Notes under the pieces: model-generated
What the model was told of the DNA's origin: nothing
Databases searched by the model: none
What the model saw: only the letters and a program-made list of their open reading frames with translations
Translations under genes and position numbers: made by a program
Shown here: positions 27,583 to 43,245 of the stretch, piece after piece
Layout of the letters: each line of letters opens with the position of its first letter
Position numbering within the stretch: the stretch's first letter is position 1
Origin: Methanosarcina mazei S-6
GTDB lineage: Archaea; Halobacteriota; Methanosarcinia; Methanosarcinales; Methanosarcinaceae
Assembly (NCBI RefSeq): GCF_000970205.1
Contig: NZ_CP009512.1
Location: 372,001-436,000, forward strand
Length of the DNA stretch: 64,000 nucleotides
Direction of reading: 5' to 3'

Positions 27583-28785
27583 ATGATCAAGAAAGTACCT
27601 TCAACCGAACTGAAAAACCGTATGAGTTGCTTCAGAAAACAGATGGATATCTCAAATCCCGACTGGGAAATAGCTTTCATCTTCAGCAAAATCAATCTTT
27701 ATTACTTTACCGGCACCATGCAGGATGGGATGCTTATTATTCCGAGGAATAGAGAAGCAACTTTCTGGGTACGGCGCAGTTATGAGCGGGCTCTGGATGA
27801 ATCGCTATTTTCCAGTATCAAACCTATGAACAGCTTCCGTGACGCAGCAGGGAGTGTGAGCAGGGTAAGCGAGCTTCCCGACACTGTATATCTGGAAACC
27901 GAAGTAGTCCCTCTGGCCCTCTACCAGAGGCTTCAAAAATACTTCCCATTTAAGAACGTTAAATCCGTTGATGCCCAGATTTGCGCTGTTAGAGCGGTAA
28001 AAAGTGAGTATGAGCTTTCCCTGCTGCGAGAAGCCGGCAGAATTCATCAACATGTACTCGAAGACCTTGTGCCCGGGATGCTGCGCGAAGGGATGAGTGA
28101 GGCTGACCTGTCAACGGAATTGTTCTCTGTTCTGGTCAAAGAAGGGCACCACGGTGCATGCCGTTTTGGAATGTTTGATACGGAAATGATTCTCGGAAAT
28201 GTCTGTTTTGGGGAAAGCTCCATTTATCCTACTTATTTTAATGGACCCGGCGGAAAGTATGGTTTATGCCCTGCTGCACCCGTGCTTGGGAGCCGTGACC
28301 GGAAGCTAAGAAAAGGTGACCTTGTGTTTGTTGATGTGGGGTGCGGAGTTGATGGTTATCATACGGATAAAACCACAACATACATGTTTGGCTCTTCCCT
28401 TCCGCAGTATGCCATAGACATGCACAATAAATGTGTGGATATACAGAATGAAGCTGCAGCAATGTTAAAACCAGGGATTGCCCCTTCTGAAATCTACAAT
28501 ACCATAATGAATGGGCTTGATAAGGAATTTCTGCAAAACTTCATGGGTTTCGGCAACCGTAAAGTGAAATTTCTCGGGCATGGAGTCGGTTTATTAATTG
28601 ACGAAACTCCCGTAATTGCCAAAGGGTTTGATGAGTCCTTGCAGGAAGGAATGGTATTTGCTCTCGAACCTAAAAAAGGAATTGAAAATATCGGTATGGT
28701 TGGAATCGAAAACACTTTCATAGTAACTGCTGATAGCGGAGAATGCATTACAGGAGATAATCCGGGATTGATTCCTGTATATTGA
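27583..28785 (+). CDS. M24 family metallopeptidase (Xaa-Pro dipeptidase-like)
   Basis: A 400-residue protein with an N-terminal creatinase-like domain (about 1-160) and a pita-bread catalytic domain. All five metal ligands are visible: VFVDVG and YHTDKT (two Asp), [12 protein letters not shown] (His), ALEPKKG (Glu) and GIENTF (Glu). Expected to cleave Xaa-Pro dipeptides or a related substrate in the cytoplasm. Its C-terminal quarter and 3' flank are duplicated as a broken copy at 40108-40487. Confidence 0.88.
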
Positions 28786-29400: not shown

Positions 29401-30474
29401 TTATCTTTTCTTGAGCCTCCATCCACCACACAGGCAGGCCAGACTCCCCAACAATCCGAAGCCTGGAATAGAATTATTTTTGCTCGATTCATTTCTACCT
29501 GAACTACTACCGCTGCCAGATTCGGAATTATTATTTGAATTATCAGATCCTTTTATACCTTCTTCAGGTGTCGACATAAAAATAACTGGAACATTATTCA
29601 CATTTTGTTTTCTTGCCTCTTGATCAATGGTCTGGTAGATTTCTTCAGCAAGAAAAGTTTTTTCTTCAGGAGACAAAGTTTCGTTAATCTCTACTTCCAA
29701 TCTAATTCCTGTTGCGTATCTAATTACCTGACCTTGTTCCATATATGGAGTGATTTTTTCCTCGGTAGCATTAGCAATCTCAGATAGCTCATTCACCCAG
29801 GAAATTGTCTCATTCTTATCTTTTAACAGAGGAATATTCCCATAAGCTGCAACGGTTTTCTGCACTGGCATGACCGTTTTTTGCTTCATAACTTCTTCAA
29901 GTGTATATATATCAGCTTCAGAAAGATTTTCTGTATTTTCCCCAAACCAGTACCAGCGATTAATGCCTTCCAGGTAAATTACCTCCCTATAAGTTCCGTA
30001 TCCGAATTCTACTGGAATATCCTGTATACCCATTTCTTCTGCAGAATTATCTATTAGAGAGTAGATCTCATCCATTAACTGCTCGTCAACATTGCCATAC
30101 TTGAACAAAATCACAAAGTATCCCTTGGCATTAATTCCACATGACATTACCTCTCCATGAGGATACATGTATTTGGAGACAACAGTGTCTTTTATCTCAT
30201 TACTAAGTTCTTCAAGAGTAGAGTTCCAGTTTTCTTTTTGAGTCTCAGTTTCCAGTACAGGAGGCTTTCCGTATCTTGTAATTACATTATTTCCTTGTGA
30301 ATACAGACCAAAAAAGTAAGTATAATAGTCAAAATCTACATTACTTATTTCTGAATTTTCAGAATTATTACTTTCCGGCGAAAGTTGCACTGAATCATCG
30401 GCAGATGCAGGAAATATCAAGACCCCAAAAAATAGAAGTAACGTTATCAATAAAGTTTCAGATTTTTTCATCAT
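29401..30474 (-). CDS. Exported protein with two copies of a protease-prodomain-like domain
   Basis: A 357-residue protein: signal peptide 1-25, repeat one at about 68-160 (YGKPPV...MYPHGEVMSCG...GIQDIPVEF), repeat two at about 211-303 (YGNIPL...VNNVPVIFMSTP), a Ser/Asn-rich linker, and a C-terminal PGFGLLGSLACL-GG-RLKKR tail resembling PGF-type archaeosortase signals. Both repeats resemble residues 80-175 of the chymotrypsin-fold protease at 32034-33239, where the domain sits ahead of the catalytic part. A chaperone or inhibitor role is inferred. The shared island promoter module lies upstream at 30734-30993. GGAG lies near the ATG. Confidence 0.75.
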   Translation of the reverse strand: MMKKSETLLITLLLFFGVLIFPASADDSVQLSPESNNSENSEISNVDFDYYTYFFGLYSQGNNVITRYGKPPVLETETQKENWNSTLEELSNEIKDTVVSKYMYPHGEVMSCGINAKGYFVILFKYGNVDEQLMDEIYSLIDNSAEEMGIQDIPVEFGYGTYREVIYLEGINRWYWFGENTENLSEADIYTLEEVMKQKTVMPVQKTVAAYGNIPLLKDKNETISWVNELSEIANATEEKITPYMEQGQVIRYATGIRLEVEINETLSPEEKTFLAEEIYQTIDQEARKQNVNNVPVIFMSTPEEGIKGSDNSNNNSESGSGSSSGRNESSKNNSIPGFGLLGSLACLCGGWRLKKR

Positions 30475-30733: not shown

Positions 30734-30993
30734 CTTAAATACAGACAAAGCTAACATAATCATTACCTCTTAGGGCAGATTTTATGGAGTTCAGGTGTAC
30801 CGGAAATACTTCCAAACTCCATAAACTCATTTTTATCAGTTCTTTAAATGTTTTATGGCCAAATCATCCAACTATTAATCTAATTCCCCGATATATCTCC
30901 AAACAGTTTGGATTTAGATTTGACTATTCTTTCAGTTGGGTGATTTGGCTATAAATTAGTTATAAAAGTAAGTTTCCAGAATAATAACATTTA
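30734..30993 (-). promoter_or_regulatory. Island promoter module upstream of the two-domain protein
   Basis: About 260 bases nearly identical to 39539-39797 upstream of the metzincin gene. On the minus strand it holds, in order, the 98-bp palindromic element (30855-30952), a second palindrome (ATGGAGTT...AACTCCAT), GTTAGCTTTGTCTG and TATTTAAG (complement of 30734-30741) as TATA box. Transcription would start near 30712, leaving a leader of roughly 240 bases. Confidence 0.6.
30855..30952. repeat. Palindromic island element, copy 1
   Basis: Left arm ATGGCCAAATCATCCAACT at 30855-30873; right arm AGTTGGGTGATTTGGCTAT at 30934-30952 with two mismatches. The 60-base core contains a conserved purine-rich/AT-rich spacer shared with the other four copies. 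Confidence 0.8.
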
Positions 30994-31309: not shown

Positions 31310-31702
31310 TTATACTGTCAAACTAAGGATATAGAGATAAATCCTACCGTCAGTTTGGCCGTCTGCATTATCATAGTATGTACCCAGCAATGCGCCACTC
31401 GGAGTATACACCTTAAGCCGGAGTGAATCAGTCGAATCTCCCCAGTTAAGATCCACTACCAGAAGGGTCAGGCCGCTACTTACACTTTTTTCATGCAGGT
31501 TTGTCTCTCCCTGTCTGATCGTATCATAAATTGTACGAATACCCATTTCCTCGTTAACTGTCTAGGCTTCAGTGTCAATTGCAGGTGTTACGATGTAATT
31601 ACTTGAGATTTCTGCTTTATCTATATTCTCAGTTGTTGCTGTTGCAGTGGAAAATAAAAAAAGCAAAGTTGTCAACATAATCAAAAATATCTTTCTCGAC
31701 AT
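31310..31702 (-). pseudogene. Small secreted beta-sandwich (PPC-like) protein, broken copy
   Basis: ATG at 31702 after GGAGAGC starts a signal peptide (MSRKIFLIMLTTLLF), but codon 47 is TAG at 31562-31564 where the sister copy at 41412-41872 has Glu. The frame continues with MGIRTIYDTIRQGETN, LTLLVVDLNWGDSTDSLRL and VYTPSGALLGTYYD, then loses homology after GRIYLYI and stops about 25 residues early. The domain resembles bacterial pre-peptidase C-terminal beta-sandwiches. Readthrough of the amber as pyrrolysine is possible, but the truncated C terminus argues for decay. Confidence 0.7.
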
Positions 31703-31749
31703 TATTAGCTCTCCTTTTAACACTTGTCAAGACAGTTTACTTAAATTTT

Positions 31750-31846
31750 ATGGCCAAATCATCCAACTATCAATCTAATTCCTCTATAAATCTTAAAACA
31801 GCTCGATTTGGATTTGAATATACTTTCAGTTGGATGATTTGGCCAT
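31750..31846. repeat. Palindromic island element, copy 2
   Basis: Perfect 19-base inverted ends: ATGGCCAAATCATCCAACT at 31750-31768 and AGTTGGATGATTTGGCCAT at 31828-31846. It lies centrally between the divergent small secreted gene and the chymotrypsin-fold protease. Confidence 0.85.
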
Positions 31847-32033
31847 AAAGTAGTTATAAAAGTGAGTTCATGGAAAAAATGAACATCCAAAAAGATGTTT
31901 GGCGGAGTTCAAATTCACTCTGGAAAGTCTGTTTGAACCCCACTTTGCCCGGAGGCATGAGTTAGTGTTAGCTTTGTGAATATTTAAGGCTTGCTTGATC
32001 CTGCCTCTGGAACAAAATGTGCGAGGTAGAAAC
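31847..32033 (+). promoter_or_regulatory. Conserved leader and core promoter of the secreted protease
   Basis: Contains a second palindrome (GTTCAAA...TTTGAAC near 31908-31937), TTGCCCGGAGGCA, then TTAGCTTTGT and TATTTAAG at 31981-31988, 53 bases before the ATG. The same order and the same 53-base spacing occur before the phospholipase C gene, so these are probably functional promoter parts. Confidence 0.65.
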
Positions 32034-33239
32034 ATGACAACAAAGAATAAATTTGGAATAAGAATATTGTTTTTGACAATGTTCTTAATAAGCACGGTTT
32101 TTGTACCGGTGGCGAGTGCCGAAACATTATCTGAAGGTGCTGATGATATAGAAGTTGCAGAGCTAGGACTAATTACATCAGAGGAGCTAAATTCGATAAT
32201 CAAACAGATTCCTCCAACAGATCCCCATATCCTGGAAAAAATGAGTGAAAATGAGAGCGCTTTAAGAACGTACGGTAAAGTTCCTGAAATTACAACAGGT
32301 ACTGAGGTTTATAAATGGTTTAATACTTTGGACTGTATCAGGGTTAACCTGAATGAGAACAAAGAAATGAAGCCGTACTTTTATCCTGCAGGCCCACTTG
32401 TAGCATACGGTACACATGCAGACGGTTATTTTTGGATTATTGTCGACGAAAGGTATGATATTAAAAACGAGGATTTTGATGCCATTGTCGATTTAATAAA
32501 TAAACAAGCAATAAAACTAAACATTAAAGATGTGCCAATTATTTTTTCTACTGGCACTCCAATAAATATTACTTCTGCTTCCATTAATCAAGTTTCAACA
32601 AGTTCTGTAGACCCGTACCTTGTTTATCGTCGCCCTATTACAGGAGGGATAGCGCTTACTATAGTTAATGGGGGTTCTGGAGCTGACGGGACTATAGGAT
32701 TTGCTGCTAAAAGAAATAGTGATAATGCCAATGGATATGTAACTACTGGACATACATCTTGGTTCCAAACGGGCTTACCATCATACCAGCCAATATACGG
32801 CTCTGGTAATCAGGCTGGGACGGTTTCAAAAATCGGCGTAAATACTGATGCAGCTTTTATACCATATAGTAATGTTACGGCTCGAATACATACTGGTGGA
32901 GGGAATTTTGTGAACGTAGCCGGTTACTATTCGGGTGGAATTTCAGGCATGACTCTTACAAAATCTGGAAGAGCAAGTGGATCTGTGACAGGACAATACA
33001 TCGGAGTTTTGACAGGTCAGACCATTGGTGGGCACTACATGGATAAAATAGAGTTAATGACTACAACATGCACAAGTGGAGATAGCGGCGGACCTGTATA
33101 TGCTTATTATAATGGGAATTATAAGATCGTTGGAATAATATGTGGATGGACGACAGTAAATCAATCTATACCAGCCACTGTTTATATTCCATGCGGGGAA
33201 GTAACGTCTAAGCTCGGTGTAACTCCTCTTACAGCATAA
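32034..33239 (+). CDS. Secreted chymotrypsin-fold (S1-like) serine protease with prodomain
   Basis: A 401-residue preproprotein. Signal peptide 1-29 (ending VASAE), polar spacer, prodomain about 80-175 (RTYGKVPEI...PYFYPAGPLVAYG...IKDVPIIF), then a trypsin-like domain with the full triad: His240 (VTTGHTS), Asp272 (NTDAAFIPY) and Ser351 (TSGDSGGPVY). It resembles streptogrisin or alpha-lytic proteases, which also need a prodomain to fold. The ATG at 32034 has GAGGTAGAAAC upstream; the in-frame TTG at 31995 lies in the promoter and is rejected. A neighbouring gene encodes two free-standing copies of the prodomain. Confidence 0.9.
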   Translation: MTTKNKFGIRILFLTMFLISTVFVPVASAETLSEGADDIEVAELGLITSEELNSIIKQIPPTDPHILEKMSENESALRTYGKVPEITTGTEVYKWFNTLDCIRVNLNENKEMKPYFYPAGPLVAYGTHADGYFWIIVDERYDIKNEDFDAIVDLINKQAIKLNIKDVPIIFSTGTPINITSASINQVSTSSVDPYLVYRRPITGGIALTIVNGGSGADGTIGFAAKRNSDNANGYVTTGHTSWFQTGLPSYQPIYGSGNQAGTVSKIGVNTDAAFIPYSNVTARIHTGGGNFVNVAGYYSGGISGMTLTKSGRASGSVTGQYIGVLTGQTIGGHYMDKIELMTTTCTSGDSGGPVYAYYNGNYKIVGIICGWTTVNQSIPATVYIPCGEVTSKLGVTPLTA

Positions 33240-36099: not shown

Positions 36100-36391
36100 A
36101 AGGTGCTATCTTTGATAGCCTACATTTTTCATCCATTTCTTTCTTTTTAAGGATTTGTCAAACTTGCTACAGAATCTACTTGAGCATAAGAAGGTGATAA
36201 AAAATCTAGATGCTGCAGAAATCTTCTGAAACAACTAATATCCATTCAAATTAATGGCCTGACACTTTTTTGCTTATTTTTTTCAATCTCTTACATCTAA
36301 TTTAGATAGATATTTTACAAAGCCCGAACATATCTTTTCAACATTGTTAGCCCTCTTTTTAATACTTATCAAGACAGTTTACTTAAATTTT

Positions 36392-36489
36392 ATGGCCAAA
36401 TAATCCAACTAACAATCCAATAGCCCTATAAATCTCCAAAAAGCTCGTATTTAGGTTTATCTATACTCTCAGTTGGATGATCTGGTCAC
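36392..36489. repeat. Palindromic island element, copy 3
   Basis: Left arm ATGGCCAAATAATCCAACT at 36392-36410; right arm AGTTGGATGATCTGGTCAC at 36471-36489. To the left, on the minus strand, is the conserved promoter and start of the small secreted gene (AAAGAGGGCTAACAATG), stopping after nine codons. To the right is the hydrolase-side leader followed by a broken signal peptide. Confidence 0.75.
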
Positions 36490-36490
36490 A

Positions 36491-36748
36491 AATTAATTAT
36501 AAAGGTAAATCCCTGAGAAAATGAACATTAAAAAGATGTTTAGAGAAGTTTAAATTCCCTCTGGGAAGTCTATTTGAACTCCACCTTGCCCGGAGGCAAG
36601 AATATGATAGCTTTGCGAATATTAAGGCTTACCTGATCCTGCTTCCTGGGTAAGAGGAATGATTCAGTGTTAGCTTTGTGAATAGTTTTGTTCTTGTATC
36701 AACTGCGAGTGCGGCTGCCTAGGATTCAAGTGTAAATAATCTCTCTGA
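36491..36748 (+). pseudogene. Remnant of an exported-hydrolase gene start
   Basis: The leader matches those of the protease and phospholipase genes. It is followed by a signal-peptide tail (SFVLVSTASAAA) from a GTG, then TAG at 36720-36722, then DSSVNNLSDSEVET before homology is lost. Most of the gene is deleted. Confidence 0.55.
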
Positions 36749-38225: not shown

Positions 38226-39479
38226 TTATTGGAATCCTGCAATTGTATTTTTATTCGCCACGATGTACAATATATTGTTATGACTAGAATCTCCATGGTC
38301 ATTTAAGTTAGAGAATTCGTCTTGCATGTAGTTAGGGAAAATCGAGCCCATGAAAGGAGTCCACATGACGGTGTAATAGTGAGATAAACCACTATCCCAG
38401 CTATATGCTTCATCGTGAGTTGCACCAAAATTATGTCCAAGTTCATGCGCTGTAAGAATTATTTTTTGTAAAGAGGTTGCTTGATAACTGTTTATATATC
38501 CTGCTGACACCATCTGTCCTACTGCATATGCTTGACCCGAATTACCATTAAATACACGCGCACAACCAATATCGCTGCCGGTCATCTCTTTTCCAGTGAA
38601 TAAAAAAGCTAAATCACTGTTTGTGCTATCTCTATCATTTGCAGCAATACTAGCGAAATCGGATAGCACTTCACAGGCTTCATCATTAGGAATTGTACTA
38701 TAATATGTGTATGATTTTATGTTTAAATCTACATTAGCTAGTGAAAATATAGATTCGACACCAGCCAATATATTCTGCATCTCAGCATTAGGATTGGAAA
38801 ACTCTAAGTCAAATTCTTCATCATAGCACGCCATAATATCCACAACAGGTAAGGAAAGTAACAAGGTTGAAATTTGTGCCGGATCCAACGAAGAAGTGGA
38901 CAAACCCTCTTGAGCCGCTTTTACATCATCTCCGTCAGTATTATACACCAAAATTTTTCTATCCTTAATAGCATCTGATGAATAAACGACATGAACAATT
39001 TTTTCATTGTATGTTATAGGGGTCTGTTCAATAAAATAACTTTTATCGCCAACGTTTATTTGTCCTATAATTACATCATCTGCTACTGTTAATAGAACAC
39101 TACTATTTTCTTTACCAACAACTGTTCCTTTATATGTAGAAATTTTAGGAGCAGGCATCCTTGATCCATTTTCTGTTATAATTATTGCATCATCACTTAC
39201 TATATCTATTTCTTGAAGGTCAAGCTGGAATTTTTGTCCTGATATTTTTAGTGTGACCTGACCATCAGGAATATCATTAAGAAAAGCTGTAGTATTTGTA
39301 GTAACAGTTTCAAAATTATCTAGTATCTCATTGAATTTAAGAGATGTTTTGTCAAAATCAATATTATTCATAATATCTGAATTTTCATTATTTGTAGCTG
39401 CACTTACTGCCGGTATCAACGCTATACCAACCAGCATTGTCAAAAGAAGCATATTTATCATAATTTTGTTTCTACTCAT
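38226..39479 (-). CDS. Secreted metzincin metalloprotease
   Basis: A 417-residue preproprotein: signal peptide 1-28 (PAVSA), a propeptide-like beta domain to about 200, and a catalytic domain with the zinc motif HELGHNFGATH (His345, Glu346, His349, His355) and a Met-turn at Met372 (YYTVMWTPF). The motif and spacing are those of reprolysin/ADAM-like metzincins. A Cys pair and a conserved Asp after the third His complete the picture. GGAGTTAGACG precedes the ATG. Its promoter region carries palindromic copy 4 and the conserved TATTTAAG core. Confidence 0.9.
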   Translation of the reverse strand: MSRNKIMINMLLLTMLVGIALIPAVSAATNNENSDIMNNIDFDKTSLKFNEILDNFETVTTNTTAFLNDIPDGQVTLKISGQKFQLDLQEIDIVSDDAIIITENGSRMPAPKISTYKGTVVGKENSSVLLTVADDVIIGQINVGDKSYFIEQTPITYNEKIVHVVYSSDAIKDRKILVYNTDGDDVKAAQEGLSTSSLDPAQISTLLLSLPVVDIMACYDEEFDLEFSNPNAEMQNILAGVESIFSLANVDLNIKSYTYYSTIPNDEACEVLSDFASIAANDRDSTNSDLAFLFTGKEMTGSDIGCARVFNGNSGQAYAVGQMVSAGYINSYQATSLQKIILTAHELGHNFGATHDEAYSWDSGLSHYYTVMWTPFMGSIFPNYMQDEFSNLNDHGDSSHNNILYIVANKNTIAGFQ

Positions 39480-39538: not shown

Positions 39539-39797
39539 GACAAAGCTAACATAATCATTGCCTCTTAGGGCAGATTTTATGGAGTTCAGGTGTACCGGAA
39601 ATACTTCCAAACTCCATAAACTCATTTTTATTAGTTGTTTTAATGTTTTATGGCCAAATCATCAAACTATCAATCTAATAGTCCTATAAATCTCCAAAAA
39701 GCTCGGGTTTTGGTTTGAATATACTCTCAGTTGGATGATTTGGCCACAAATTAGTTATAAAAGTAAGAAAAGTAAGTTTCTAGAATAATAACATTTT
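39539..39797 (-). promoter_or_regulatory. Island promoter module upstream of the metzincin gene
   Basis: Nearly identical to 30734-30993. Order on the minus strand: palindromic element, ATGGAGTT...AACTCCAT palindrome, GTTAGCTTTGTCTG, TATTTAAG (complement of 39539-39546), GCTTGCTTGATCTTGCCTCC, then the start codon 67 bases after the TATA box. Confidence 0.65.
39650..39747. repeat. Palindromic island element, copy 4
   Basis: Left arm ATGGCCAAATCATCAAACT at 39650-39668; right arm AGTTGGATGATTTGGCCAC at 39729-39747. 98 bases, upstream of the metzincin gene. Confidence 0.8.
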
Positions 39798-40107: not shown

Positions 40108-40487
40108 ATGAAGATATTCCTGCCTTTTTATGAGACTATAAAAAGAGTGGGATCGAAAACAGTGACGTTAAATCCCGGTGTTGCCCTCTCCGATATTTGC
40201 AATACCATAATGAGAAGGTTACATAACGAATTCCTGCACAATTTCATGGGGTTCAGTAGCTGTAGAGTGAAATTCCTCGGGCATGCCGTCGGCCTCTTGA
40301 TCGATGAAACTCCCATAATCGCCACCGGGTTCGAGGAACCCCCTCAGGAAGGAATGGTATTTGCCCTCGAACCCAAAAAGGAATTGAAAAAATCGGTATG
40401 GTAGGAATTGAAAACACCTTCATAGTAACTTCTGAAGGCGGAGAATGCATTACCGGGGATAATCCGGGCCTGATTCCTGTATATTGA
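40108..40487 (+). pseudogene. Broken duplicate of the M24 peptidase C terminus
   Basis: From about 40160 the sequence encodes the last 110 residues of the M24 peptidase at 27583-28785 ([45 protein letters not shown]). One A is missing in the AAAAAGG run near 40376, shifting the frame; the final [17 protein letters not shown] and LIPVY are in the other frame. About 75 bases of 3' flank are also shared. The N-terminal three quarters are absent. Confidence 0.85.
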
Positions 40488-40647
40488 TTATTAAATGTGG
40501 ATGAAAGCTGATGTTTAGTGAGTTAAGAGAAACCGATTGTGAGGAAGTATAGTTTTTAAGAACAAAATAGGACTGCTTTGATAGTTGCTATCTCCCTTTG
40601 CAGCTATCTATTCTTTTTTTAACACAGCAATAAAATTGTCTCATGCC

Positions 40648-41376
40648 TTATGTTTTAAGCCATTTTAGTAGATCTGTTTCCACAGCAGGGTTTATAATAT
40701 ATTTTGAGAACTTCCATTCTGCTTCGGAAATAATAATATCGTCTTCCCGTAACTTTTTTATATGCCAGTGAGTAGTACTTTTGTCTAAACTCAGCTTTTC
40801 TGAGATTTCCTGATTTGTAATCCCGGGATTTTCCAGAATATTAAGGAGTATCTGTTTTCTTGTACCGCCTTTGAGGTGTGCTATTATTGTTTTTTCGTTG
40901 TTTGTGAATGCATTGGAATTTTGAAAGGCTCTTGTGAACTTTCTTTCTTTAATTAAGGTCAACTTCTCTTCGATTTTAAGTGTCTTGAGATGATACCTTA
41001 CGCAACCCCGGGTAATTTTCAGCTCTTTTGATATTTCGGAGGGGGTACATCCCGGCTTCTTCAGTACATAATCGATAATTTTCTTTCTCTTATTACGTTT
41101 ATTTAGATTTCTCATCTGGCCAAGGATTACCGGAGCCATTTTAAAAACAGAAACAAAAATGGCCAGGTATCCTATTATGTAAGCTATTTTGAATGATAGT
41201 GGAAACTCCCAGAAAGTAAGAGTCCTGTCCGCCCCACTCATATCAATAGCATCACCCAATTTTTCTAGCTCTTCTTCAGGTGGGCAGGGACCAACAATAT
41301 ATCCTCCGGTATCTGCACTCACCGTATCTGCGACGGCATTCAGGACAAGAATAAAAAGTAAGATCTTTTTCCACAT
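40648..41376 (-). CDS. Membrane-tethered regulator with two winged-helix domains
   Basis: 242 residues. A signal-like segment (1-21), a short exported acidic region (PCPPEEELEKLG), a transmembrane helix (about 60-85), then two cytoplasmic winged helices: KIIDYVLKKPGCTPSEISKE...RYHLKTL (about 98-145) and QILLNILENPGITNQEISEK...HWHIKKL (about 170-220). The layout is that of a one-component membrane-bound transcription regulator sensing an outside signal, frequent in Methanosarcina. Being set among exported-hydrolase genes that share an upstream palindrome, it is a candidate regulator of them; this is inference. Confidence 0.8.
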   Translation of the reverse strand: MWKKILLFILVLNAVADTVSADTGGYIVGPCPPEEELEKLGDAIDMSGADRTLTFWEFPLSFKIAYIIGYLAIFVSVFKMAPVILGQMRNLNKRNKRKKIIDYVLKKPGCTPSEISKELKITRGCVRYHLKTLKIEEKLTLIKERKFTRAFQNSNAFTNNEKTIIAHLKGGTRKQILLNILENPGITNQEISEKLSLDKSTTHWHIKKLREDDIIISEAEWKFSKYIINPAVETDLLKWLKT

Positions 41377-41411: not shown

Positions 41412-41872
41412 TTATATCGTATAATCTTCTGTTCCGGTCACTCTGTACCCATATACTTCATACTTCCAGGTTCCTGCTTCAATTCCATTTGGATTTTGTA
41501 TATAGAGATGAATCCTGCCGTCAGTTATGCCGTCTGCACTATCATAGTATGTACCTAGCAATGCGCCACTCGGAGTATACACCTTAAGCCGGAGTGAATC
41601 AGTCGAATCTCCCCAGTTAAGATCCACGACCAGAAGGGTCAGGCCGCTACTTACACTTTTTTCATGAAAGTTCGTCTCTCCCTGACTGATAGTATCATAA
41701 ACTGTCAGGATGCCCATATCTTCGTCAATTATCTCAATTTCAGCATTAGGTGAAGGTGTTATGATATAATTGCTTGTAACTTTTGCTTTCTCAACATTTT
41801 CAGCTGCTATCGCCGTAGTAACAGATACTAAAATAGGGTTGTCAGTATAATTAATAACATCTTTCCTGGCAT
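41412..41872 (-). pseudogene. Small secreted beta-sandwich (PPC-like) protein, frameshifted in the signal peptide
   Basis: An ATG at 41870-41872 lines up with the start of the sister copy (31702), but one base is missing within the signal-peptide region, so TAG is met after 14 codons. In the shifted frame the protein continues: SVTTAIAAENVEKAKVTSNY, NAEIEIIDEDMGILTVYDT, LTLLVVDLNWGDSTDSLRL, GRIHLYIQNPNGIEAGTWKY, ending EDYTI. An ATG at 41717 could give a 101-residue cytoplasmic product. The beta-sandwich resembles pre-peptidase C-terminal domains. It is divergent from the phospholipase C gene. Confidence 0.7.
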
Positions 41873-41921
41873 TGTGTTAACTCTCCTGTTATCACTTCTC
41901 AAGAGAGTTTACTTAACCTTT

Positions 41922-42018
41922 ATGGCTAAATCATCCAACTATTCATCAAACAACTCTATCTATCTTAAAACAGCTCGATTTGGATTTGAATATACTTTCA
42001 GTTGGATGATTTGGCCAT
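41922..42018. repeat. Palindromic island element, copy 5
   Basis: Left arm ATGGCTAAATCATCCAACT at 41922-41940; right arm AGTTGGATGATTTGGCCAT at 42000-42018. Position between a divergent small secreted gene and a hydrolase gene is the same as for copy 2. Confidence 0.8.
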
Positions 42019-42204
42019 AAAGTAGTTATAAAAGTGAGTTCATGGAAAAAATGAACATCCAAAAAGATGTTTGGTGGAGTTCAAATTTGCTCTGGAAAAT
42101 CTATTTGAACCCCACGTTGCCCGGAGGCATGATTAGTGTTAGCTTTGTCTGTATTTAAGGCTTGCCTGATTCTGCCTCCTGGGAAATGAACAGGAGTGAT
42201 CTAC
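42019..42204 (+). promoter_or_regulatory. Conserved leader and core promoter of the phospholipase C gene
   Basis: Nearly identical to 31847-32033: second palindrome (GTTCAAA...TTTGAAC), TTGCCCGGAGGCA, TTAGCTTTGT, and TATTTAAG at 42152-42159, again 53 bases before the ATG. CAGGAG at 42191 is the ribosome-binding site. Confidence 0.65.
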
Positions 42205-43245
42205 ATGATAGCAAAGAAATTAGGAATAGGATCATTGTTTTTGGCAATGTTTCTAGTGTGTATGGCGTTTGTGCCAGCAGTAAGTGCTGAAACACTAACT
42301 GAAGATGCCGCTGATACTGCTGTTGAAAAAATTAAATCTCCAGTCCCAGAACCAGAGCCGACTACGGTGCCTGATACAATGCCTGAATCGCCTTATCGGT
42401 ACCTATTGGAAGCAGATAATGAAGAGCAGGAAATTTTGTTCAGTTATATTGAAAATTGCTATGTCTCTGATGAAGAAAAGAAAGAAATGAAAAAAGCAAT
42501 GAAAGATATCTGGAAAAGAGGTCCTGATCAAATAACTGAGCAAGATAACCTAATGCTTGATAAAGTTGCTAAGTCAACTGCCGAATATCTTAATGATAAA
42601 TATGGCAATGTTGGAATTAAATGGTCTGGGCCTAATATGCATGGAGACATTATACATATTGCGTGCATAAAATGGGGTGTCAGTACATCTAATGCACAGA
42701 CTGCAAACAACTCTGCTCCTGTTCCAGATACTTGGAATAGTGGATTCTGGCAGTCATATAATCATTACTATGACCCTGTTCTTAATACCGGCTATGCTCC
42801 CACTAATTGCGCGAATCGTGCAAATATTGCTAAAGATTACTATAACAGCGGTCAATATACTAGTGCATATCAACATCTTGGATATTCAAGCCATTACATG
42901 GCTGATCTAGGAAACCCTATGCATACAGGTAAGGAATCTGAACAGTATCTAAATCAATGGGTTCACACTTCCTATGAGTCGTATGTAGCCAATAACTGGA
43001 ATACAGGATATAACTATAAAAATGTAGTACAAAACACTGGTACTTACTACTCAATAACCAATCCTGAACAATCTGCCAAAAATTTAGCAAGTGCGACCCG
43101 CTCCGATTTGAATGCTTTATACGACGCGGTTTTCTATTATCCAGATACTTTTGGATCCGATTCTGACGTAATCGAAATCACACAAAGAGTTCTGGGGAAG
43201 ACAGCAAAGTACAATATGGGGCTTGTAAAGTATGTGAGAGGGTAA
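42205..43245 (+). CDS. Secreted zinc-dependent phospholipase C-like protein
   Basis: About 346 residues: signal peptide 1-28 (PAVSA), acidic/proline linker, then a helical domain carrying the zinc-ligand pattern of the zinc-dependent phospholipase C/S1-P1 nuclease fold: HGDIIHIACIKWG, YQHLGYSSHYMADLGNPMHTG and WVHTSYESYV. Likely hydrolyses phospholipids outside the cell. The ATG at 42205 is preferred to an in-frame GTG at 42196 because CAGGAG lies eight bases upstream. The protein encoded 38 bases downstream on the same strand is probably cotranscribed. Confidence 0.85.
   Translation: MIAKKLGIGSLFLAMFLVCMAFVPAVSAETLTEDAADTAVEKIKSPVPEPEPTTVPDTMPESPYRYLLEADNEEQEILFSYIENCYVSDEEKKEMKKAMKDIWKRGPDQITEQDNLMLDKVAKSTAEYLNDKYGNVGIKWSGPNMHGDIIHIACIKWGVSTSNAQTANNSAPVPDTWNSGFWQSYNHYYDPVLNTGYAPTNCANRANIAKDYYNSGQYTSAYQHLGYSSHYMADLGNPMHTGKESEQYLNQWVHTSYESYVANNWNTGYNYKNVVQNTGTYYSITNPEQSAKNLASATRSDLNALYDAVFYYPDTFGSDSDVIEITQRVLGKTAKYNMGLVKYVRG

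Follow-up and report, generated by a model that had tools for sequence, protein, structure and literature searches.

The 64,000-nucleotide stretch of Methanosarcina mazei S-6 DNA analysed here (the window; from a genome of 4.14 Mb in one contig, G000) carries at 40648..41376 on the minus strand an intact open reading frame with an ATG start, encoding a predicted membrane-tethered regulator of 242 amino acids with two winged helices in tandem, as read from Pfam profiles, hydropathy and a family alignment. A polar stretch separates its two hydropathy peaks, at residues ~5-23 and ~65-83; we read the first peak as signal-like (...VSA|D; residues 1-21, 41314..41376) and the second as the single likely transmembrane helix (residues ~61-83, 41128..41196). 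The first winged helix, at residues ~96-134 (40975..41091), is the better of two stretches matching HTH_5 (E 7e-15), and the second, at residues ~172-215 (40732..40863), is the better of two stretches matching HTH_24 (E 7e-22). A preliminary description of the locus had proposed this very order of a signal-like segment, a small outside region, one membrane helix and two winged helices, which is borne out by Pfam and hydropathy, the outside loop measuring ~40 residues. By eye, the 17 sequences of a family alignment share this order, the most distant being 24% identical to the first. The same description had rightly placed the gene between a metzincin and a phospholipase module: an M12B-type metalloprotease with a signal-like start is encoded at 38226..39479 on the minus strand (Reprolysin_5, E 2e-16), and a PLC-like protein, also with a signal-like start, at 42196..43245 on the plus strand, its match to Zn-dependent phospholipase C being weak (19 bits, below the 26.8 cut-off). 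At 40160-40506, direct repeats D5 and D7 mark what looks like a remnant of the gene at 27583-28785, repeating its C-terminal part.

With a DNA-binding domain and at least one transmembrane segment in one chain, as judged by profiles and hydropathy, the protein classifies as a putative transmembrane transcription regulator. It scores 50.3 bits against the HVO_0163 N-terminal HTH family (PF24266, HTH_HVO_0163_N; curated cut-off 31), which indicates the presence of a winged helix of this kind and no more. The scores fall short of both the TrmB family (18.4 bits for the TrmB domain against a cut-off of 25.6) and the ArsR/SmtB metalloregulators (34.6 bits for NCBIfam HTH_metalloreg against 55), and the hallmarks of ArnR and ArnR1, i.e., an N-terminal HTH, HAMP and sensor domains and two C-terminal membrane helices, are absent by profiles and hydropathy. 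The fold of the regulator rests on the profiles because an AlphaFold2 model built from nine sequences is of low confidence (mean pLDDT 52.7). In a PDB sequence search with the regulator profile (47 matches), the best matches are single winged-helix proteins, and no chain among the matches listed spans both domains. Most named records among the close homologues are Methanosarcina, and the regulator profile also finds matches in other families. At 98% identity, the regulator is encoded on a contig (L210) assigned to a Cloacimonadota MAG; this contig is probably misbinned Methanosarcina.

Directly upstream of the regulator and on the same strand lies the gene of a small PPC-like protein (41412..41876, minus strand), named for a PPC match at E 0.0011 that stays below the cut-off; it also matches, at 1.6e-66, a profile made from its relatives and from part of its own sequence. 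The PPC-like protein has 31 invariant columns across eight aligned rows, and a PDB sequence search with its profile gave no match better than E 0.027. In the 1.3 kb upstream of the regulator, a same-strand PPC-like gene is present for 14 of 17 copies in the genus, 19 of 36 homologues outside it and 11 of 15 paralogues; none was found downstream or antisense of those homologues, and 17 of the 36 outside the genus have none within 1.3 kb. In the window's gene, the mature part is open and the signal-peptide-like part lies in another frame, which could reflect decay or something programmed; copies in three other genomes (L090, L098 and L102) give similar frame-shifted readings by eye.

The region between this operon and the divergent PLC-like gene holds two copies of an asymmetric 22-bp element that we call the arm, one at 41919..41940 (minus strand) with its AAA end towards the PPC-regulator operon and one at 42000..42021 (plus strand) for the PLC-like gene. 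Ten arms occur in the window against 0.02 expected by chance, arranged as five inverted, back-to-back pairs with 59-60 bp between the arms and a span of 103-104 bp; the "97-bp palindrome" that the regulator had been suggested to bind was not found as such, and these five pairs take its place. At the metzincin promoter, one arm precedes the gene (39647..39668, minus strand), and the AAA side of the facing arm (39729..39750, plus strand) holds a 71-aa ORF. The pair at 31747-31849 points with its minus-strand arm (31747..31768) towards a second, decayed PPC-like copy (31313-31726, minus strand), and its plus-strand arm (31828..31849) precedes the gene of a 414-aa protein with a signal-like start and only a sub-threshold Peptidase_S6 match (E 0.039; 31995..33239, plus strand). 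That second PPC-like copy, lying beneath the arm, has an in-frame stop, a truncated end and no adjoining regulator. Further along, the arm at 30852..30873 (minus strand) precedes a 357-aa gene with a signal-like start (29401-30474, minus strand), and its facing arm at 30934..30955 (plus strand) has just an 82-aa ORF on its AAA side. For the remaining pair, at 36389..36410 (minus strand) and 36471..36492 (plus strand), no ORF was found on either side, and stretches near this orphan pair resemble the leader of other arm promoters. The flanks of the five pairs are partly segmental duplications in blocks of up to 300 bp, so the pairs do not count as independent.

Genome-wide, the organism of the window has 19 arms and no instance of the reversed pattern. 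Across 30 Methanosarcina genomes, 124 arms were found at up to three mismatches, 123 of them distinct by their flanks, and when a partner was sought at up to five mismatches, 48 of these 123 sites had one facing and none had one in the same direction. The offsets at these 48 sites are 80-83 in 44 cases, 176 in two (one locus), 171 in one and 73 in one. At a further 16 of the 123 sites, a variant or "type 2" arm (TGTTTGAGAATTTACACAGAAA) faces the standard type-1 arm at offsets of 71-73 or 82-83. Many arms are single or face a variant arm. Outside the genus, all 26 pairs at 12 bits or more stand back to back, 16 of them 32 or 43 bp apart; overall, pair spacing varies from 30 to 176 bp and the orientation is constant. 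We do not claim a helical phasing of these spacings, which gave Rayleigh p values of 0.03-0.10 at 10.2-10.5 bp and 0.25 at 10.6 bp, p 0.07 in a jitter test and a better fit at 9.5 bp (p 0.004-0.008). Three loci (L080, L087 and L088) carry arrays of genes resembling the one scanned C39-like peptidase, and at many of these a type-1 and a type-2 arm face each other at 72-83 bp.

The arm has a defined position relative to the promoter. Among 129 arms of at least 20 bits, a set deduplicated by flanks yet partly paralogous, a TWTATA consensus occupies positions 4-9 after the AAA end, and in divergent paralogues the arm comes first, then a TATA-like stretch and then the gene. Of the single arms, 32 have a gene on the AAA side alone and 10 on the opposite side alone (p 0.0009); 17 have genes on both sides and 14 on neither. 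In six of those ten, the gene starts 234-248 bp away, and in seven the best facing match, with 8-9 mismatches, sits at offset 72-73, although match quality alone is near chance and the promoters are related. Paired arms (AAA side only 24, other side only 32, both 54, neither 20) are uninformative for this direction test, which is what pairs serving one gene to each side would give; single and paired arms together include 34 without a gene on either side. Our early reading, in which the arm lay between TATA and start and the pairs were face-to-face promoters, was overturned by the paralogue operons and the single-arm direction test. Most likely, the arm lies upstream of TATA and transcription heads outward, away from it, which at the pairs would most likely mean towards the regulator operon on one side and towards secreted-enzyme genes on the other. 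Given that the TATA-like stretch starts ~3 bp after the AAA and that single arms mostly have their genes to this side, the arm would cover the place upstream of the BRE and probably part of the BRE itself. In Methanolobus, TATA is located ~19-22 nt ahead of transcription starts (PMC5378194), and starts at the arm promoters would be expected roughly 25-35 nt beyond the arm.

The predicted target genes are enriched for putative secreted products. By a simple hydropathy rule, a signal-like start is present in 104 of the 133 ORFs that begin no more than 320 bp from an arm on its AAA side, compared to 371 of 975 other ORFs at the same loci; counted by families, the figure is 28 of 42 (p 3e-4 against the same uncollapsed ORF background). 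The products of the scanned targets, a minority of all targets, or of the genes following them include a C39-like peptidase, two M12B-type metalloproteases, a beta-helix protein and a UPF0228 protein.

Several lines of evidence tie the arm to the regulator. Within Methanosarcina, facing pairs (one arm at up to three mismatches, its partner at up to five) occur in all 12 genomes with a full-length orthologue versus one of the 18 others (Fisher 1.5e-7; 30 genomes), the counts being 11/12 and 1/18 with the partner at up to four mismatches and 12/12 and 2/18 at up to six. The lone exception at five mismatches, G001, retains a 68-residue C-terminal remnant of the regulator. An arm of at least 12 bits lies within 650 bp upstream of 12 of the 17 full-length copies in the genus, a test that is partly circular because the matrix derives from these genomes. 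The nearest arms of the remaining five copies are 0.64-2.6 kb upstream, behind the PPC-like gene in two cases, longer genes in two and opposite-strand ORFs in one, these last looking by eye like transposase pieces. Nine genomes without a full-length orthologue also carry 1-10 arms, so that the reader in these genomes must be a paralogue or some other protein; a profile search detects divergent family members in all nine, and these may do the reading. Counting any family member, arms occur in 21 of 24 genomes that have one and in none of the six that do not (p 1.4e-4; three of these six are at least 90% complete and three less than 90%), and three genomes (G006, G013 and G017) have a family member and no arm at up to three mismatches. 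An earlier class of ten genomes with "no family member", defined by a single-sequence search at E<=1e-20, was given up since the profile search found divergent members in four of them (G008, G013, G014 and G020).

Outside the genus, an arm matrix built from Methanosarcina only finds an arm scoring 12 bits or more in the 650 bp upstream of 33 of the 36 homologues examined (31-64% identity), compared to 20 of 76 other ORFs of the same islands and none of 25 ORFs at loci of paralogues. Most paralogues with 25-30% identity have no type-1 arm upstream (1 of 14 at 12 bits or more). Several of them carry type-2-like arms ~450-490 bp upstream, and in at least six a type-2 match at up to three mismatches ends ~550-555 bp before the gene's profile match; such variant arms of divergent paralogues may perhaps explain the arms in the nine orthologue-free genomes. 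Mismatches between the regulators' own arms rise with regulator distance (Mantel r 0.55, 0 of 2000 permutations; 52 of 68 homologues, the 16 without an own arm left out), a correlation confounded by species divergence. Paralogues within one genome differ in their arms at 7.2 positions on average (n 6), as opposed to 3.6 between close relatives in different genomes (n 189). The suggested pairing of the regulator with inverted repeats is therefore largely supported, both in the genus and beyond it, and a strict one-to-one relation is not, given the nine orthologue-free genomes with arms. The idea that two DNA-binding domains serve one long palindrome needs correction: the probable target is a set of two asymmetric arms that stand apart, each with a TATA-like box next to it.

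The domains, the operator, its place relative to TATA, the co-occurrence and the partner gene can all be read from the sequences, and on this basis we regard it as likely that the protein acts as a one-component regulator anchored in the membrane and controls, probably by activation, itself and a regulon of secreted hydrolases via the 22-bp arms. Its N-terminus and ~40-residue loop would lie outside, followed by one membrane crossing and a cytoplasmic part (residues ~84-242) with the two winged helices, a topology suggested by hydropathy. Most likely, one chain would read one asymmetric arm with both of its winged helices, and at divergent promoters two chains would sit back to back, one for the regulator's own operon, often composed of the small PPC-like protein and the regulator, and one for a secreted-protein gene. 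The PPC-like protein would be a likely sensor or co-sensor outside the cell, and the outside loop may likewise take part in sensing at the surface. The typical binding site of archaeal activators is upstream of the BRE, from where they recruit TBP or TFB (PMC5512572, PMC4158304), and we therefore infer activation here; by analogy with EarA, TFB-RF1 and Ptr2, the regulator would recruit TFB or TBP from its fixed site upstream of TATA.

The main rival, unlikely but to be taken seriously, keeps the same regulator and arms and makes the protein a repressor that is bound at the BRE and blocks TFB/TBP until an outside signal releases it. The short distance of ~3 bp between arm and TATA-like stretch, by which the arm probably reaches the BRE, would suit such a block, and archaeal repressors can indeed interfere with TFB or TBP by binding in the promoter region (PMC5512572); moreover, the regulator operon has an arm of its own, as is the case with autorepressors. 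The constant spacing and orientation of the arms and their upstream location nevertheless fit recruitment better, and the sites of the TrmB family at repressed promoters sit downstream of BRE/TATA (PMC4158304).

It is rather improbable that the arms are read mainly by another protein, e.g., an ArsR-like protein or a 151-aa HTH protein, with the membrane regulator as only one of its targets. In several genomes, a single arm lies between the ArsR-like gene and the 151-aa HTH gene (L082, L110, L133, L141 and L148), which could point to another or additional reader, and the arms in nine genomes without an orthologue as well as the occurrence of the 151-aa HTH gene in 25 of 30 genomes point the same way. 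Yet the 151-aa gene is also found in G006, G013, G017 and G018, all without an arm at up to three mismatches, and we have set this protein aside as a general arm reader given its presence in these four arm-free genomes. The ArsR-like copy beside an arm has seven stops in the window's genome with its 19 arms, though that genome has other ArsR-like homologues. Moreover, the arms track the membrane regulators across genera and differ between paralogues. The 151-aa HTH gene (L082 4227-4679, L110 13712-14167 and others) is mostly 89-97% identical across the 25 genomes and has one stop inside the aligned stretch in ten of them (TAG in nine, TAA in one). Methanosarcina is a genus known for pyrrolysine, and this internal stop may be worth a look.

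That the inverted pairs are merely the ends of a small, MITE-like mobile element or by-products of segmental duplication is very unlikely on spacing, orientation and distance to TATA: the window's pairs do lie within duplicated blocks of up to 300 bp and many island genes look like paralogues, but the arm-to-TATA distance is fixed, arms also occur singly, the spacing changes (30-176 bp) while the orientation never does, and arms lie upstream of regulator homologues in other genera.

Returning to the membrane-anchored activator, we tentatively propose a broader picture that could well hold at slightly less than even chances: the Methanosarcinaceae may have a family of two-gene systems for surface sensing, each pairing a secreted PPC-like protein with a membrane-tethered activator whose tandem winged helices read an asymmetric 22-bp arm at the BRE. 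Paralogues would have their own arm variants, mixed type-1/type-2 promoters would integrate two regulators, secreted hydrolases would be switched directly from the membrane, and paired chains would bridge divergent promoters.

Membrane-bound one-component regulators as such are already known in archaea (PMC10269533, PMC6396743). Transmembrane transcription regulators of bacteria and archaea, as described in PMC10269533, likewise unite a DNA-binding domain and a membrane segment in one chain, with the single-pass type being most prevalent; unlike in that description, the system here has two winged helices, a PPC-like partner frequently encoded alongside, and a predicted 22-bp operator and regulon. 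EarA, TFB-RF1 and Ptr2 are archaeal activators with sites upstream of BRE/TATA, as here, but are not described as membrane-bound in these accounts, and EarA has four 6-bp sites in place of our 22-bp asymmetric arm (PMC5512572, PMC4158304). ArnR and ArnR1 of Sulfolobus acidocaldarius are likewise membrane-bound archaeal one-component regulators, which control surface structures, and ArnR is described with one N-terminal HTH, putative HAMP and sensor domains and two C-terminal membrane helices (PMC6396743). Unlike ArnR, the regulator studied here is predicted to begin with an outside loop at its N-terminus, followed by one helix and then two winged helices; this domain order and the two winged helices set it apart from ArnR, and the partner, the predicted operator and the predicted regulon are added. 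In ToxR of Vibrio, the DNA-binding part comes first along the chain, and the ToxR/ToxS partner is unrelated to the PPC-like protein. ToxR/ToxS, a membrane-bound regulator with a partner protein (PMC7496328), is an analogy only. Among the matches listed in a search of the open-licence literature, no title concerned a 22-bp arm operator or its regulon, from which we do not claim absence from print.

The 2019 study of ArnR and ArnR1 calls itself, to its authors' knowledge, the first biochemical analysis of archaeal membrane-bound transcription factors (PMC6396743). Hardly any biochemistry has thus been done on such factors so far, and the present analysis yields a predicted regulator, a co-encoded partner, an exact predicted operator and a list of targets. 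Genetic tools exist for Methanosarcina. How methanogens control secreted enzymes and how a membrane-tethered factor may act at the archaeal BRE become testable with this system, as does the joint divergence of paralogous regulators and their operators.
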